NCBI RefSeq assembly: GCF_000299935.1
Contig: NZ_AMRL01000027.1
Location: 1-46,687 of the forward strand
Direction of reading: 5' to 3'
Origin: Oceanibaculum indicum P24
GTDB lineage: Bacteria; Pseudomonadota; Alphaproteobacteria; Oceanibaculales; Oceanibaculaceae
DNA: 46,687 bases
Positions 10,172 to 17,443 of this stretch are shown piece by piece. Each line of letters starts with the position of its first letter. The stretch's first letter is position 1. The notes beneath the pieces are model-generated. The model was not told where the DNA came from. It was given only the letters and a program-made list of their open reading frames with translations, and made no database searches. Position numbers and translations under genes: made by a program.

Positions 10172-10849
10172 CTAGAACGCCAGCCGTCCGTAGAGGTTAT
10201 CGAAAGGCAGCATGACATGCGCCCGATAGGCCGGGCGCTCCTGAAGCCGGGCGAACCAGGCCTGGACATTCGGCACCTCGGGATAGTCCAGCCCCATGCC
10301 GAAATAGCGGAACAGGCAGGCCCCCGCCGGGATGTCGGCCAGCCCCAGCCGGTCGCCGGAGAGATAGGGCCGGTCCGCAAGCTCGGCGTCCAGCACGCGC
10401 ATATATTGGGCGCAGGCATCCTGCTTCACCCGGATCGCGGTCCAGTCGCGCCTGTCCTCCGGCGTGCGGTAATAGCCCCAGAACAGGCCGGAGAGGAAAG
10501 CCGGCTGCAGGGCGGTGGCCGACCAGTCCATCCAGCACTCGTCACGGGACCGGGCCGCCGGATCGTCGTGCCAGAAGGACTCCTTGCCGTACACCGCCGC
10601 CAGATAGCGCAGGATGGTGTGGGATTCCCAGATCACCGTGCCACCCCCATCACGGGCAGCATCGCGGATCACCGGCACCCTGCCATGCGGGTTCATCGCG
10701 CGGAATTCCGGCGTATCCAGCCCGCCGGCATCGCCCCCGGCATCGATATGGGTGTGCGGGATGTCCAGTTCGCCAATCAGCCACATCACCTTCTGCACGT
10801 TGAAGGCGCTGCGCCGGCCCCAGATGGTGAGCCCAGTTTGGTCGCTCAC
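10172..10849 (-). CDS. Glutathione S-transferase family protein
   Basis: A 225-residue protein with a thioredoxin-like N-terminal domain (LTIWGRRSAFNVQKVMWLIGEL, then the GSH-binding cis-Pro loop GRVPVI and the ES pair in VIWESHTILRYLA) and an all-helical C-terminal domain ending with LSGDRLGLADIPAGACL, which matches the N-capping box region. It is cytosolic and probably conjugates or reduces electrophiles using glutathione; the substrate is unknown. The start is GTG, overlapping the DUF4340 gene stop as GTGA, so it is translationally coupled to the Gld-like operon, an unusual partnership. Confidence 0.92.
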   Translation of the reverse strand: MSDQTGLTIWGRRSAFNVQKVMWLIGELDIPHTHIDAGGDAGGLDTPEFRAMNPHGRVPVIRDAARDGGGTVIWESHTILRYLAAVYGKESFWHDDPAARSRDECWMDWSATALQPAFLSGLFWGYYRTPEDRRDWTAIRVKQDACAQYMRVLDAELADRPYLSGDRLGLADIPAGACLFRYFGMGLDYPEVPNVQAWFARLQERPAYRAHVMLPFDNLYGRLAF

Positions 10850-11880
10850 GAGGAGCCTTCCTGCTTCTTCGCCAGGTCCTCCAGCTTGCGGCGCAGCTGC
10901 TCGTTCTTGAAGTCGGCCAGCCGGTAGGCCCAGCCCTCAGCCCGCGCATTGATCTCGGCGGCTTCCGCCTTCACCTCGTCCGCGGCATCGGGCAGCGCGG
11001 CAGCGGTGTAGCGTGTCCACAGCTTGCCATCGCGCTCAGCAAAGCCGATGGTCACGGCCAGCCCGTCGAAGGTGGTGTAGCGCGTCACCGCCTCCTGCAG
11101 CGCGATCCCCTCGGCCGGCATCACGGCGTCGAACACCAGCTTGTCCAGCGTGCCGGCGGTGGCGTTCACGGTGAACTGGTTCTCCACCTTCATGCCCTCG
11201 GGCAGATCGACGATGCGGAACTCATTGCCCTCGCGGCTGTCCTTGGCGACCGTCAGGCTGCCACCCTCAGGATGATCAATGACCACCTGCTTCACCCGGC
11301 CGCGCGACACGTCGGCGATGCGCCGGTCCAGCCAGTCGATGGCCTCGGTGCGCGGGTCGAGCCGGCTTTCCGCCAGGAAGGCCTGCCCGCCATCGGGCCG
11401 GCGCACATAATGCGCGTCAGGCTGACCGCCTTGGCCGAAGCGCTTCTTGCCGACGATCAGCTCCGCCAGCACCTTGCCGGCGCCATCCAGCACGGTGACC
11501 CGGCGGGAGCGCGCCTCTTCCGCATCCAGCGGCTCGACCTCCAGCCGGGCGAACATCTCCGGCCGCTCGGTCTTGGCCTCGACAATCCGCATGTCGGCAA
11601 GCGCCAGCAGCAGCGCGCGCACCGCCTCGCCGCGCGCCGGGTAATTATGCGCATTCTCGACTACCCAGCCCTCGCCGGCCCGGACCAGCGTCACGCTGTC
11701 GCGGCGATCCTCCAGCTGGATGGCGGCAACCTCGTTCAGCCGGTCGGTCAGGTTGGGGAACACCGGCTCGGCGCTGACGCTGCCGATGGCCGCAGCGTGG
11801 CGCTGCCAGGCGGCATGGCCGGCGGCGCCGACCGCGAGCAGGGTCACGACGAACAGGATCCAGAAGCCGCGGGCGGTCAT
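10846..11880 (-). CDS. DUF4340 domain protein, partner of the Gld-like ABC system
   Basis: A 344-residue protein with one N-terminal membrane anchor (GFWILFVVTLLAVGAAGHAAW) followed by a periplasmic region with repeated beta-rich modules (VAAIQLEDRRDSVTLVRAGE; GWVVENAHNYPARGEAV; WLDRRIADVSRGRVKQVVID). This pattern is typical of DUF4340 proteins, which commonly follow GldG-like genes. The start ATG overlaps the GldG-like stop as ATGA, and its own stop overlaps the GST start. Role unknown; presumably a periplasmic component of the same envelope complex. Confidence 0.85.
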   Translation of the reverse strand: MTARGFWILFVVTLLAVGAAGHAAWQRHAAAIGSVSAEPVFPNLTDRLNEVAAIQLEDRRDSVTLVRAGEGWVVENAHNYPARGEAVRALLLALADMRIVEAKTERPEMFARLEVEPLDAEEARSRRVTVLDGAGKVLAELIVGKKRFGQGGQPDAHYVRRPDGGQAFLAESRLDPRTEAIDWLDRRIADVSRGRVKQVVIDHPEGGSLTVAKDSREGNEFRIVDLPEGMKVENQFTVNATAGTLDKLVFDAVMPAEGIALQEAVTRYTTFDGLAVTIGFAERDGKLWTRYTAAALPDAADEVKAEAAEINARAEGWAYRLADFKNEQLRRKLEDLAKKQEGSS

Positions 11881-13838
11881 GCGGATGCTCCTTTCCCCGA
11901 AGGCGTTGCGGAAATCGCCCCTCGCCGGCGCCGGGCGGCGCGGGCGAGGCCGACAAGGATAGCGGCCAGCACCACGAGCAGCGGCACCAGACCGATATTC
12001 AGGAACAGCAGGCGGGTCTGCAGCGCGTCGATATCCTCGCGCAGGGAGCGCTGCACGGTGCGCAGCTCACGCCGCGCCTCCAGAATATCCTCCTGAATCT
12101 TGGCGATCTCGGCGCGCTGCGCGTTGGTCAGGATGGCACCGCCGCCGGGCGCGTCCTTGGAGCGCAGCTCCTCCAGCCGGGCCAGCGAGGCCTGCAGGCG
12201 TTCCTGCAGCGCCTCCTCCTGCGCGCGGAAGCGCTGGTCGGCCTCGCGGCGCATTTCCTCGATCACCGTGAAGGGCCGGGCGATCATGCCGCGCCCGCGC
12301 AGATCGACCAGCGCCGAACTGCCTGACAGGCTCTCCAGCAGGTTCATGACGAAGTCGCCATTGTTGGCGAACGGCGTGACCACCTGCTGGCCGAAGAAAT
12401 CCTGCACCTGGACCCAGAATCGGTCATCCAGCAGGTCGGTATCGGCGATTACCGCGAACATCGCCTCGCCCTGCGATTCGGTGCGGAACTCCGGCAGCTC
12501 CTTCGGCGCCCCAGCATCTCCTGGGGTCTCGCCTTCGGGCACCGGACGGCCGTCCGGGAAGGCGGTCGCGAGCCGGCCCTGGAAGCGCGCGGCCAGCACC
12601 TTCGCCTCACCGCCCGGCTTGTACTCGCGCAGCAGCCCCTGCGGATCGGGGCGCGGCCGCAGCCGGTCCACCGGGATCATCATCGATTCCGGGCTGGTGG
12701 TGATCAGCGGCGTCATGGTGAGGCCGGCACCCTCCGCCAGCCCGACCGCGCCGGCGCTGGCCATGGACAGGCGCTGCAACTCACCGGTGACCGGCAAATC
12801 CTGATTGATGTTGCCGCGCTGCAGATTCAGCCAGACCACGAAATCGACCGGCACCACCTGGCTGCCGGCGCCGGCATTCACCCGGCGCGCGGCGCGGCGG
12901 TCACCGACCACCTCGCCCTGCGAGACGGTGACACCCCATTTATCGAACAGGGCGGGCAGCGCGCTGGCCGTATCCAGCTTCGGCTGGCCCGACGGATCGG
13001 GGATAGTGGCGTCAGCCTCGGAATAGGGATCGACGAAGAAGATCGCGCGGCCGCCGGCCATCATGAACTGGTCGATGGCGTAGAGCGTCTTTTCCGGCAG
13101 GTTCTTCGGATGCACGACGAACAGCACATCGACATCCGGCGCCACCCGGTCGATGGCGGTGCCGATGGTGCGCACCTGAAAGACCTGTCGCATCTGCTGC
13201 AGGATCGTCCAGGGCGGGGCGACCTGCCCGCCGGGCATGAAGCGCCCTTCCAGCGGCAGGCCGGCGATCATGCCGACCACCTTGCGTTCCGGGTTGGCCA
13301 GATTGTTCACGATGCGGGTCAGGTCATACTCCAGGAAGCGCTCGCGCTCCGGCTGGAAGAAGGGGATGACCTGCTCGTCATCGGTCAGGTTGGTGCCGAC
13401 CAGGCCGAAATAGACCTGCTCGCCGGACTGGTCGATGGGCACGCCCTGCAGCCCGAAGCTGACCGCGCGGTCCTCCACGGTCGAGAAGGGCTCGGGGTCG
13501 AAAATCTCCAGCTGGATCTTCCCGCCGGCCAGATTGGCGTATTCCTGCAGCAGGTTGCGCACGCGCTGGCCATAGGCGGCATAGGCCGGCAGCTCGCGCC
13601 CCAGCCGCTCGGAGAAGAAGAAGCGCAGGGTGATCGGCTCCTCGATCTTCGACAGCGTCTCGCGCGTGCCGGACGACAGGGTGTAGAGCCGGTCCTCAGT
13701 CAGGTCGAGCCGGGCCGAGGTGAAGGTGACGCTGGAATAGACATTGACCGCGACGAACAGCAGCGCGACCAGCGCCAGCGACAGCCAGGCATAGGAAGGA
13801 CGCACAAGAGAGGAACGGGTTTGCGGGGTCTTGGCCAT
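11877..13838 (-). CDS. GldG-like ABC transporter auxiliary protein
   Basis: A 653-residue protein with an N-terminal TM (WLSLALVALLFVAVNVYSS), a large extracytoplasmic domain beginning with LDLTEDRLYTLSSGTRETL, a feature of the GldG/IFT52-like family, a coiled-coil stretch near residues 545-620 (RFRAQEEALQERLQASLARL), and a C-terminal TM (IGLVPLLVVLAAILVGLARA). In gliding Bacteroidetes, GldG works with GldA and GldF; in proteobacteria the homologous complex has no settled role. The gene lies 3 bases after the permease gene and overlaps the DUF4340 gene by 4, so they are co-translated. Confidence 0.9.
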   Translation of the reverse strand: MAKTPQTRSSLVRPSYAWLSLALVALLFVAVNVYSSVTFTSARLDLTEDRLYTLSSGTRETLSKIEEPITLRFFFSERLGRELPAYAAYGQRVRNLLQEYANLAGGKIQLEIFDPEPFSTVEDRAVSFGLQGVPIDQSGEQVYFGLVGTNLTDDEQVIPFFQPERERFLEYDLTRIVNNLANPERKVVGMIAGLPLEGRFMPGGQVAPPWTILQQMRQVFQVRTIGTAIDRVAPDVDVLFVVHPKNLPEKTLYAIDQFMMAGGRAIFFVDPYSEADATIPDPSGQPKLDTASALPALFDKWGVTVSQGEVVGDRRAARRVNAGAGSQVVPVDFVVWLNLQRGNINQDLPVTGELQRLSMASAGAVGLAEGAGLTMTPLITTSPESMMIPVDRLRPRPDPQGLLREYKPGGEAKVLAARFQGRLATAFPDGRPVPEGETPGDAGAPKELPEFRTESQGEAMFAVIADTDLLDDRFWVQVQDFFGQQVVTPFANNGDFVMNLLESLSGSSALVDLRGRGMIARPFTVIEEMRREADQRFRAQEEALQERLQASLARLEELRSKDAPGGGAILTNAQRAEIAKIQEDILEARRELRTVQRSLREDIDALQTRLLFLNIGLVPLLVVLAAILVGLARAARRRRGAISATPSGKGASA

Positions 13839-13841
13839 GGT

Positions 13842-14573
13842 TCAGCGCCCCTTCTTCAGATCGACCAGCAGCGCCGTGGCCCACAGGAAGGCCAGGATCG
13901 CCGAGAGATAGAAAATGACGTCGCGCAGATCGATGACGCCGCGCGTGATGTCCTGGAAATGCGCCAGGAAGCTGAAGGAGCGCAGCGCCTCCAGCATCGG
14001 CGCTGGCGCCCAGCCGGTGAAGAAAGACAGCACCAGCGAGGAGCCGGCGGAGACGAAGAGGACACCGACTGCCGCCGTCAGCACGAAGGCGATGATCTGG
14101 TTGCGGGTCAGCGCGGACAGGGCCGAGCCCAGCGCCAGATAGGCGCCGGCCAGCAGCGCGCTGCCGATATAGGATGCCAGGATCACGCCATTATCCGGAT
14201 CGCCCAGATAATTGACGGTGATCCACAGCGGGAAGGTCAGCGCCAACGCGATTGTCGTGAAGGCCCAGGCGGCGAGGAACTTGCCGGCAACCGCGCTGCC
14301 GATGGAGACCGGCAGGGTCAGCAGCAGCTCCAGCGTGCCGCTCTTGCGCTCCTCCGCCCACAGCCGCATCGCCACCGCCGGCGTCAGCACGAGATAGAGC
14401 CAGGGATGGAAGCCGAAGAAACCCTGCAGGCTGGCCTGCCCGGCCTCGAAGAAACTGCCGACGAAGAAGGTGAAGGTCGCCGTCAGCATCAGGAAGATGA
14501 CGATGAAGATATAGGCCAGCGGCGTCAGGAAATAGCTCGCCAGCTCGCGCTTGAAGATTGCCCAGACACCCAT
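13842..14573 (-). CDS. GldF-like ABC transporter permease
   Basis: About 243 residues with six likely TM segments, starting MGVWAIFKRELASYFLTPLAYIF and including the signature LWAEERKSGTLELLLTLPVS of the ABC-2/GldF permease family. The start at 14573 lies 4 bases after the ATPase stop and gives the canonical N-terminus; a longer open frame only shadows the ATPase gene. It forms the membrane channel of the Gld-like ABC complex. Substrate unknown. Confidence 0.92.
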   Translation of the reverse strand: MGVWAIFKRELASYFLTPLAYIFIVIFLMLTATFTFFVGSFFEAGQASLQGFFGFHPWLYLVLTPAVAMRLWAEERKSGTLELLLTLPVSIGSAVAGKFLAAWAFTTIALALTFPLWITVNYLGDPDNGVILASYIGSALLAGAYLALGSALSALTRNQIIAFVLTAAVGVLFVSAGSSLVLSFFTGWAPAPMLEALRSFSFLAHFQDITRGVIDLRDVIFYLSAILAFLWATALLVDLKKGR

Positions 14574-14577
14574 CGCT

Positions 14578-15525
14578 TTAGCCCTGTTCCCCGGTCTTTT
14601 TCGGATTGGTGATGTCGCGGAACACCTCATCGAGGCGGCCGCGCTCCAGCCGGATTTCGTCCGCCGCGATATCGGCATCGCGCAGCGCCTGGCTGACCGC
14701 CGGCAGGATGGTCTTGCGGCGCTGGGCCAGCACGGTCAGCGTGCCATCCCCCTCCTCCAGGCCGGCCGCGCCCGGAATATCCGCCAGCGCCTTGCGGGCG
14801 GCGGGCAGAGCACTCTTCTTCAGCCGCACCGTGACCGCGTTATGCAGGCGCGACCGCGCTTCCAGCTCAGCTGGGGTACCGTCGGCGACGATCTGCCCGC
14901 CGGCAATCACGACGGCGCGGCTGCACAGCGCGTCCACCTCCTCCAGGATGTGGGTCGAGATGATGATGGCCTTGTCCTTCGCCATGCTGCCGATCAGCGT
15001 GCGCACCTCATGCTTCTGGTTGGGGTCGAGACCGTCGGTCGGCTCGTCCAGCACCAGCACCTCGGGGTCATGCAGCAGCGCCTGCGCGAGCCCGACGCGG
15101 CGCTTGAAGCCCTTGGACAGCGTGTCGATCGGCTGATACAGCACGCCGCCCAGCGTGGTGCGGTCGATGGCGGCCTCGATCTTCGCCTTGCGGTCGGCGC
15201 CCTTCAGCCCGCGCACATCGGCGCAGAATCCAAGGAACCCTAGCGGCGTCATGTCGCCATAGGCCGGCGCACCTTCCGGCAGGTAGCCGATGCGGCGCTT
15301 CACTTCGATCGGCTGGCGGCCGACATCGAAGCCGCACACCTCGGCGCTGCCCCCGGTCGGCTCCAGAAAGCCGGTTATCATCTTCATGGTGGTGGATTTG
15401 CCGGCGCCATTGGGGCCGAGGAAGCCCAGCACCTCCCCCCTGGCGACGGCGAAGGAAATGCCGTCAACGGCGCGGATCGGCCCGAAATGTTTCGCCAATC
15501 CGCTGACTTTGATCATCTCGGTCAC
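14578..15525 (-). CDS. GldA-like ABC transporter ATP-binding protein
   Basis: About 315 residues. Walker A GPNGAGKST (about 37-45), signature LSKGFKRRVGLAQAL, Walker B VLVLDEPTDGLDP and switch His in IISTH are all intact, with a family-typical C-terminal extension. I chose GTG 15525 because GGGGGAG lies 6 bases upstream; ATG 15516 is the alternative. It is the first gene of the gldA-gldF-gldG-DUF4340-GST operon and lies divergent from the adenylate cyclase gene, with about 195 bases between starts for both promoters. Confidence 0.92.
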   Translation of the reverse strand: MTEMIKVSGLAKHFGPIRAVDGISFAVARGEVLGFLGPNGAGKSTTMKMITGFLEPTGGSAEVCGFDVGRQPIEVKRRIGYLPEGAPAYGDMTPLGFLGFCADVRGLKGADRKAKIEAAIDRTTLGGVLYQPIDTLSKGFKRRVGLAQALLHDPEVLVLDEPTDGLDPNQKHEVRTLIGSMAKDKAIIISTHILEEVDALCSRAVVIAGGQIVADGTPAELEARSRLHNAVTVRLKKSALPAARKALADIPGAAGLEEGDGTLTVLAQRRKTILPAVSQALRDADIAADEIRLERGRLDEVFRDITNPKKTGEQG

Positions 15526-15721
15526 TGACCGCTCCCCCTGTTCCGCCTTTTGCGCCTTCAGCGTTTCGTTCCCGGCCGTACCTGCTTCCCCCCACGGGAC
15601 GGCGACCTTCACTTTTCGACCCGCTGATTTACGAATGCAGCGCTATTTTTCAAGAGCTTGTGGCAAAATCTTGGCGACAGCCCCGCAACCGGCAGGGCTT
15701 TTAAGCCGGAGACCCTAGGAC

Positions 15722-17443
15722 ATGGCGGCGGCGGAGGCCACAAAGAAAGCCATCGATGGCGCCGCGCTGGTCCGGCGTATCCGGCTGGGCAGCGGGCTCG
15801 TGCTGGCGTTTTTCGTCATCACGCATTTCCTGAACCATTCCCTCGGCCTGATCTCGCTGGAGGCGATGGAGCAGGGCAGACTCTATTTCATGGCGTTCTG
15901 GCGCGCCAAGACCGCGATGTATGTGCTGTATGGCGCGCTGCTGACGCATCTGGCGCTCGGCCTCTGGTCGCTCTACAAGCGCCGGCCGATCCTGCGCGTG
16001 CCGCCCTGGGAGCTGGCGCAGATGGCGCTGGGCCTGTCGATCCCGCCGATCCTGGTCGGCCATGTGTTCGACACGCATTTCGGCTTCACCCTGGCCGGGG
16101 TGGACGATACCTACGCCTATGTCCTGCTGCTGCTGTGGGTGGAGCGGCCCTATGGCGCGGTGCTGCAGATCGCGCTGCTGCTGACCGCCTGGCTGCATGC
16201 CTGCATCGGCCTGCATTACTGGCTGCGCATCCGGCCCTGGTATCCGAGGGCCGTTCCGGCGCTCTATACGATCGCCCTGCTGCTGCCGGTGCTGGCGCTG
16301 CTGGGCTTCGTGCAGGGCGGGCTGCAGGTGATCGCGCTGGCCGAGACGCCGATGTGGCTGGAAAGCTACAAGCAGACCATCGACTATCCCGATGCGGCAG
16401 GCTGGGCGCGCATCCGCAATGCGGCGGAGACCGGTCAACAACTGTTCCTCGGCGGCATCGCGCTGGCGCTGCTGGGACGAGGCGCGCGGCGGCTGGCGGG
16501 GCTGCGCCGCAAGGGGGCCAGCGTGCGCTATCCCGATGGCGGGGTCTGCCACATCGCCCCTGGCACCACGATCCTGGAGGCAAGCCGCATTGCCGGCCGG
16601 CCGCATGCCTCGGTCTGCGGCGGGCGCGGACGCTGTTCCACCTGCCGGGTGCGGATCGATGCCGGCGAGGAGTGCCTGCCGCCGCCGGCACCGGAGGAGG
16701 CGCGCGTGCTGCGCCGGATCGCCGCCCCGCCGAAGGTGCGGCTGGCCTGCCAGGCGAAGCCCGCCGGCGATGTGCAGGTGACGCCGCTGCTGCCGGCCGC
16801 CGCCAGCGCCCGCGATGCGCTGCGCGCCGGACGCGAGTCCGGCGGGCGGGAGCAGCAGGTGGCGATCCTGTTCGCCGATCTGCGCGGCTACACGAAGCTG
16901 TCGGAGGACCGGCTGCCCTTCGACACGGTGTTCCTGCTGAACCGCTATTTCGCCGAGACCGGACAGGCCATCACCAGTGCCGGCGGGCGCATCGACAAAT
17001 TCATCGGCGATGGCGTGATGGCGCTGTTCGGCGCGGAAGACGGCGCCGACCCGGCGCTGGCCTGCCGCCAGGCGCTGGCCGCCGCGCGCGCCATCGGCGA
17101 GGGGCTGGACCGGCTGAACCAGGCACTGTCGCACGAGTTGAAGGAACCGCTGCGCCTGGCCATGGGGCTGCATGTCGGGCCGGCCATCGTCGGCGTGATG
17201 GGCTATGGCCCGGCGATGGCGCTGACCGCCATCGGCGATGCGGTGAACACCGCCAGCCGGCTGGAAAGCATCGCCAAGGAACGCGACGCGCAGCTGGCTG
17301 TTTCGCAGGCGCTGGTCGCGCTTGCCGTGATGGAGGCCGGCGCCGGGCTAGAGGCCCACCCGCTTGAGGATGTCGCGATCCGCGGCAAGCGCGAGCCGAT
17401 GCCGGTGCGCCTCGTCGCCCGCGCCGCCGACCTGCCAAGGTGA
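15722..17443 (+). CDS. Class III adenylate cyclase with 2Fe-2S domain and SDH-like membrane anchor
   Basis: A 573-residue three-part protein. Residues about 20-255 form roughly six TM segments rich in histidine (FFVITHFLNHSLGL, GHVFDTHFGF, TAWLHACIGLHYWL), resembling heme-binding succinate-dehydrogenase anchors. Residues about 265-350 form a plant-type ferredoxin domain with Cys299, Cys305, Cys308 and Cys343. Residues about 378-565 form a class III cyclase with metal Asp386 and Asp430, adenine-selecting Lys426 and Asp506, and transition-state Asn509 and Arg513. All catalytic residues are present in one chain, so homodimeric activity making cAMP is expected. The anchor and Fe-S cluster suggest redox or quinone control, which is inference. 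Monocistronic, divergent from the Gld-like operon. Confidence 0.93.
   Translation: MAAAEATKKAIDGAALVRRIRLGSGLVLAFFVITHFLNHSLGLISLEAMEQGRLYFMAFWRAKTAMYVLYGALLTHLALGLWSLYKRRPILRVPPWELAQMALGLSIPPILVGHVFDTHFGFTLAGVDDTYAYVLLLLWVERPYGAVLQIALLLTAWLHACIGLHYWLRIRPWYPRAVPALYTIALLLPVLALLGFVQGGLQVIALAETPMWLESYKQTIDYPDAAGWARIRNAAETGQQLFLGGIALALLGRGARRLAGLRRKGASVRYPDGGVCHIAPGTTILEASRIAGRPHASVCGGRGRCSTCRVRIDAGEECLPPPAPEEARVLRRIAAPPKVRLACQAKPAGDVQVTPLLPAAASARDALRAGRESGGREQQVAILFADLRGYTKLSEDRLPFDTVFLLNRYFAETGQAITSAGGRIDKFIGDGVMALFGAEDGADPALACRQALAAARAIGEGLDRLNQALSHELKEPLRLAMGLHVGPAIVGVMGYGPAMALTAIGDAVNTASRLESIAKERDAQLAVSQALVALAVMEAGAGLEAHPLEDVAIRGKREPMPVRLVARAADLPR

Follow-up and report, generated by a model that had tools for sequence, protein, structure and literature searches.

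The window analysed here, the whole stretch of 46,687 nucleotides from Oceanibaculum indicum P24, carries a CyaC-type adenylate cyclase gene (15722..17443, plus strand). By analogy with its characterised relative in S. meliloti, the encoded protein probably uses two membrane hemes and an iron-sulfur cluster to sense how far the respiratory quinones are oxidised, and signals by cAMP. We consider it very likely that the protein is an adenylate cyclase of class IIIb, bound to the membrane as a homodimer through a diheme-b anchor of the complex II type, and that its cAMP output tracks the oxidation state of quinone. The basis for this reading, namely the gene, the order of its domains, the fold, the invariant ligand residues, the class IIIb site and the family, was computed.

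The open reading frame runs on the plus strand from an ATG start to a TGA stop and encodes 573 amino acids. Pfam domains and AlphaFold2 helices place in a single chain a six-helix membrane anchor, a 2Fe-2S ferredoxin domain (Fer2) and a class III cyclase domain, the three-part architecture that the original prediction had described; its residue numbers for C299, C305, C308, C343, D386, K426, D430, D506, N509 and R513 also proved right when checked on the translation. The full-length model, computed as a monomer, reaches a pLDDT of 91.9 and a pTM of 0.76. Full-length orthologues share 36-92% identity with the window protein, and comparison with the nearest, same-genus orthologue (dN 0.043, dS 0.255, dN/dS ~0.17) indicates that the gene is under purifying selection.

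The anchor (amino acids 12-262; 15755..16507, plus strand) was analysed with AlphaFold2 and VIA-align and has the fold of a diheme cytochrome b of the FrdC/SdhC type with an extra C-terminal helix. Its model, built with 60 homologues (pLDDT 96.5), consists of six long helices spanning residues 2-43, 63-86, 95-125, 144-168, 174-207 and 225-261, in agreement with the roughly six transmembrane segments expected. VIA-align against the PDB paired it with Wolinella FrdC (1qlb_C) at Z 14.6 and 3.6 A over 210 residues, with the four Wolinella quinol:fumarate reductase entries at Z 14.2-14.6, the D. gigas anchor 5xmj_C at 13.7 and Chloroflexus SdhC 9lay_C at 11.7. All six chains with Z of at least 8 are diheme complex II-type anchors, and the next, unrelated chain scores 7.0. 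The alignment covers model residues 1-222, which leaves the last long helix, leading into Fer2, as an extra element that by topology would take the chain back to the cytoplasm.

The modelled fold thus relates the anchor to the SdhC/FrdC cytochromes b, while the relationship by sequence is weak. A profile search of the PDB returned D. gigas FrdC with an E of 1.4, ranked behind a designed protein; Foldseek listed FrdC ninth with an E of 1.3, yet with the top probability of the list (0.87); and hhalign against single SdhC sequences gave probabilities of 3.8-4.4%. The anchor fold is what one would also expect of an electron-transfer enzyme or a complex II anchor in which the cyclase is inactive or plays a secondary part. 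To this idea we attach almost no weight, since the anchor scores only 11.1 bits (E 0.22) against the SdhC family TIGR02046, far under its cut-off of 96, sdhA/sdhB-type genes are absent from the neighbours of the cyclase gene, and the metal-binding and transition-state residues of the cyclase are intact and under purifying selection.

Conservation was counted over 98 full-length homologues, 96 of which cover the first two of four predicted heme ligands. His35 in helix I (15824..15826, plus strand) and His76 in helix II (15947..15949, plus strand) are invariant in all 96, and His114 in helix III (16061..16063, plus strand) and His159 in helix IV (16196..16198, plus strand) in all 98. In an hhalign comparison with 16 SdhC b558 proteins, which is weak alone (E 2.8e-4, probability 41%), the four pair with SdhC histidines. 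Together with the VIA-align match to diheme complex II anchors, these four invariant residues bear out the suggestion that histidines are placed here like the heme ligands of succinate dehydrogenase. His39 is nearly invariant only (91/98); His119 (5/98) and His165 (60/98) were considered as ligands and rejected as not conserved.

The Fer2 domain follows at amino acids 278-347 (16553..16762, plus strand; Pfam PF00111, E 2.7e-9, 37.3 bits against a cut-off of 21) and also matches solved [2Fe-2S] ferredoxins. Its predicted cluster ligands, spaced C-x5-C-x2-C-x34-C, are Cys299 (16616..16618), Cys305 (16634..16636), Cys308 (16643..16645) and Cys343 (16748..16750), all on the plus strand and each invariant in 98/98 homologues. 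The genome scan for homologues was seeded with the pattern GRCSTCR, which contains Cys305 and Cys308, so that cysteine conservation is partly by construction; that of the histidines is not. When the membrane domain alone served as seed, 29 of the 30 loci kept had Fer2 and cyclase motifs downstream in one frame, and the remaining one (L178/L195) is frameshifted. The frameshift in L195:2854-4568 sits where the cyclase domain begins; the L148 (G087) copy is split into two pieces and those in L013 and L185 contain an in-frame stop, in each case through assembly error or decay.

The invariance of these residues bears on the proposal that the six helices serve chiefly as a receptor for a ligand or lipid, with hemes and cluster as structural elements. 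Other 6TM anchors of class III cyclases have been proposed as receptors (PMC4821796), and lipid regulation of Rv1625c is described in PMC12505454. The window anchor, however, has a cytochrome fold and falls in a separate cluster from the receptor-type anchors (PMC4821796), and a structural role would not require that four redox-type cysteines be invariant too, which makes a receptor function very improbable here.

The catalytic domain (amino acids 376-558; 16847..17395, plus strand) is recognised by Pfam PF00211 Guanylate_cyc (E 6.7e-16, 58.9 bits, cut-off 21.9), and its best solved match is Spirulina CyaC (1wc0; E 8.9e-16, TM-score 0.83 by target length). The metal-binding residues Asp386 (16877..16879) and Asp430 (17009..17011) are invariant in 98/98 homologues. 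Adenine recognition falls to Lys426 (16997..16999; K410 of S. meliloti CyaC), which is Lys in 77 and Gln in 18 of the 98, and to Thr502 (17225..17227; T484 of CyaC), which is Thr in 94 and Ser in four. The transition-state residues Asn509 and Arg513 (17246..17260; N491 and R495 of CyaC) are kept in 89/98 and 98/98, respectively; all these codons lie on the plus strand. In the motif TAIGDAVNTASR, Thr502 stands seven residues ahead of Asn509, the same distance as between T484 and N491 in S. meliloti CyaC. Since the adenine-specifying position is Thr502, the enzyme belongs to class IIIb, and the signature of that class is present in full (D386, D430, K426, T502, N509, R513). Numbering and conservation confirm five of the catalytic residues first named (D386, D430, K426, N509 and R513); the sixth, Asp506, is neither a catalytic nor a purine residue; the corresponding position in class IIIb is T502.

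Gln replaces Lys426 in L038, L042, L043, L044, L047, L062, L064, L066, L083, L086, L088, L089, L097, L100, L102, L103, L106 and L015, and His replaces Asn509 in eight of the 98 homologues. Judged by these substitutions, the Gln426 and His509 subgroups may differ in activity or in the substrate they prefer.

The genomic context looks like that of a gene on its own. Upstream lies a minus-strand ABC-2 transporter operon, divergent from the cyclase gene and of the gliding type (10846-15612; ABC_tran, ABC2 membrane, ABC_transp_aux, DUF4340), and downstream, also on the minus strand, follow genes for a glutathione peroxidase and a molybdopterin oxidoreductase. Across 98 loci no conserved gene neighbourhood was found apart from lineage-level clusters, and the absence of a neighbour conserved across the family makes it look like a stand-alone sensor gene. 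The partner regulator cycR, reported next to cyaC in S. meliloti, is not next to the window cyclase gene and is an accessory trait that does not define the family. Elsewhere in the host genome, which encodes two class III cyclases, there are five cNMP-binding domains, among them possible cAMP receptors.

Domains with heme or Fe-S centres are common gas sensors. In this context, the hemes could sense O2, NO, CO or another ligand directly and the 2Fe-2S cluster NO or peroxide, a view to which the adjoining peroxidase and oxidoreductase genes lend some colour. Those genes are not conserved with the cyclase gene, however, and four invariant histidines arranged as in complex II point to two six-coordinate bis-histidine hemes with no free ligand site, which argues against gas sensing. 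As the characterised relative CyaC responds to quinone, according to PMC10463352, we regard direct gas sensing as improbable and keep quinone as the preferred signal.

The gene upstream of S. meliloti cyaC (SMc01819, CycR) is called TetR-type in the CyaC paper. Directly upstream of cyaC in 24 of 30 Ensifer-group genomes (L119-L148), and also in L067 and L075, we observed a homologue of LysR-type regulators, an assignment that Pfam confirmed in L067. In a Ferrovibrio bin, a TetR-type regulator (L045:5298-5933) stands directly ahead of the cyaC homologue, an arrangement like that reported for S. meliloti.

The architecture itself has been described. In a 2016 eLife study (PMC4821796), 'cluster 1' of the 6TM cyclases comprises 30 class IIIb enzymes in which a ferredoxin separates the anchor from the catalytic domain, and their anchors, with four precisely spaced intramembrane histidines, were predicted to hold two hemes; Fe-S class III cyclases had thus rightly been called a known architecture. 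For S. meliloti CyaC, PMC10463352, citing Wissig 2019, reports two hemes b in the 6TM domain, a [2Fe-2S] cluster and a response to the redox state of ubiquinone in which oxidation activates, and K410 and T484 are residues mutated in the CyaC work, according to the same source. We compared the window protein with orthologues from 30 genomes of the Ensifer group, to which S. meliloti CyaC belongs. The complete ones are 46-49% identical to it from end to end, and about two thirds of them show Lys410 and Thr484, the published CyaC numbering, when translation is taken to begin at a TTG codon. On this identity and numbering the window protein belongs to the CyaC family, and on sequence grounds it is a member at the level of orthology. 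Heme b binding, the response to redox state or quinone and the dimer would then apply to the window protein by analogy with published S. meliloti CyaC. It is a known kind of protein, whose architecture and heme/quinone response are already published, and the window gene adds another member. The original prediction, in which an SDH-like heme anchor and a 2Fe-2S domain couple membrane redox or quinone state to cAMP, agrees with all the tests made and with S. meliloti CyaC as presented in PMC10463352; with that response already reported, it restates published work.

For the window protein we infer the following path of the electrons and part played by the cluster. Ubiquinone or ubiquinol would trade electrons with two bis-histidine hemes b, liganded by H35, H76, H114 and H159. 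The sixth helix would lead back into the cytoplasm; there the 2Fe-2S domain would either equilibrate with the nearer heme or respond to the heme redox state. A change in this domain and the following linker could then reorient the two cyclase domains, so that cAMP output would track quinone oxidation.

Relatives without a cyclase add a further perspective on the anchor and Fer2. Two anchor matches of the genome surveys had short frames (~380 amino acids), and follow-up searches found six more, giving eight proteins (L194, L198, L222 and L226-L230) that consist of a 6TM anchor and Fer2 without a cyclase. They come from alphaproteobacterial genomes and families f61 and f23; the first three loci are L194:4920-8008, L198:2-2466 and L222:767-4095 (minus strand). 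The four-His and four-Cys patterns are kept in the seven complete proteins, L198 being cut by the contig start, and the three proteins tested form one clade with a support of 0.99. This cyclase-less clade, a sister group of the cyclase type, argues that heme anchor and Fer2 act as one unit. Directly 3' of the cyclase-less gene, on the same strand, lies an MscS homologue in 8/8 loci of the two families, its start overlapping the upstream stop (GTGA, ATGA or TTGA/TGATG), whereas 0/80 cyclase-type loci, searched over flanks of at most 6 kb, have such a homologue. The overlap marks the two genes as translationally coupled and suggests a redox-coupled mechanosensitive channel pair. A literature search found no publication on this pairing of 6TM-Fer2 with MscS, which lies outside the window and may be newer than the cyclase finding. 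As a tentative extension, which we think possible but doubtful, the diheme 6TM anchor and 2Fe-2S domain would form a portable redox sensor not tied to cAMP, and pairing with MscS would give quinone- or redox-gated channels. If so, the window cyclase would represent one output among those of a wider module, whose common output port would be the 2Fe-2S domain. Stand-alone SdhC-like membrane proteins of ~200 amino acids, with neither Fer2 nor cyclase, were also seen (L223:3225-3821 and L224:2350-2964); they align with the anchor profile over its first helices.

The window gene supports the view that a direct link from quinone pool to cAMP is widespread among Alphaproteobacteria, and this link would extend to metagenome bins labelled Betaproteobacteria, Rokubacteria, Nitrospinae and Magnetococcales.

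Compared with known systems, the window protein shares with Spirulina platensis CyaC (1wc0) the catalytic fold, at 30% identity, and the class IIIb Thr, whereas that enzyme has other regulatory domains, its sensor domains being unrelated to those of S. meliloti CyaC. With the Wolinella FrdC, D. gigas and Chloroflexus SdhC anchors it has in common the fold (Z 11.7-14.6) and the number and placement of the histidines; it differs from these diheme complex II anchors in its extra C-terminal helix, in the fusion to Fer2 and cyclase, in a gene without flavoprotein or iron-sulfur subunit genes nearby and in a sequence under the family cut-offs. Cluster 1 proteins such as Rhodopseudomonas palustris Q132R4 (PMC4821796) have the same domain order and the four intramembrane histidines, with no defining difference. 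S. meliloti CyaC (SMc01818) likewise has the order 6TM diheme-b anchor, 2Fe-2S domain and class IIIb cyclase, with the same catalytic Lys, Thr, Asn and Arg; there a regulator gene adjoins, unlike in the window, and the biochemistry belongs to the S. meliloti protein, whereas the window protein is known here from sequence and models. S. meliloti has 28 class III cyclases (PMC10463352) and the window host two, so that the latter would offer a cleaner system for studying signal transfer through the 2Fe-2S domain.
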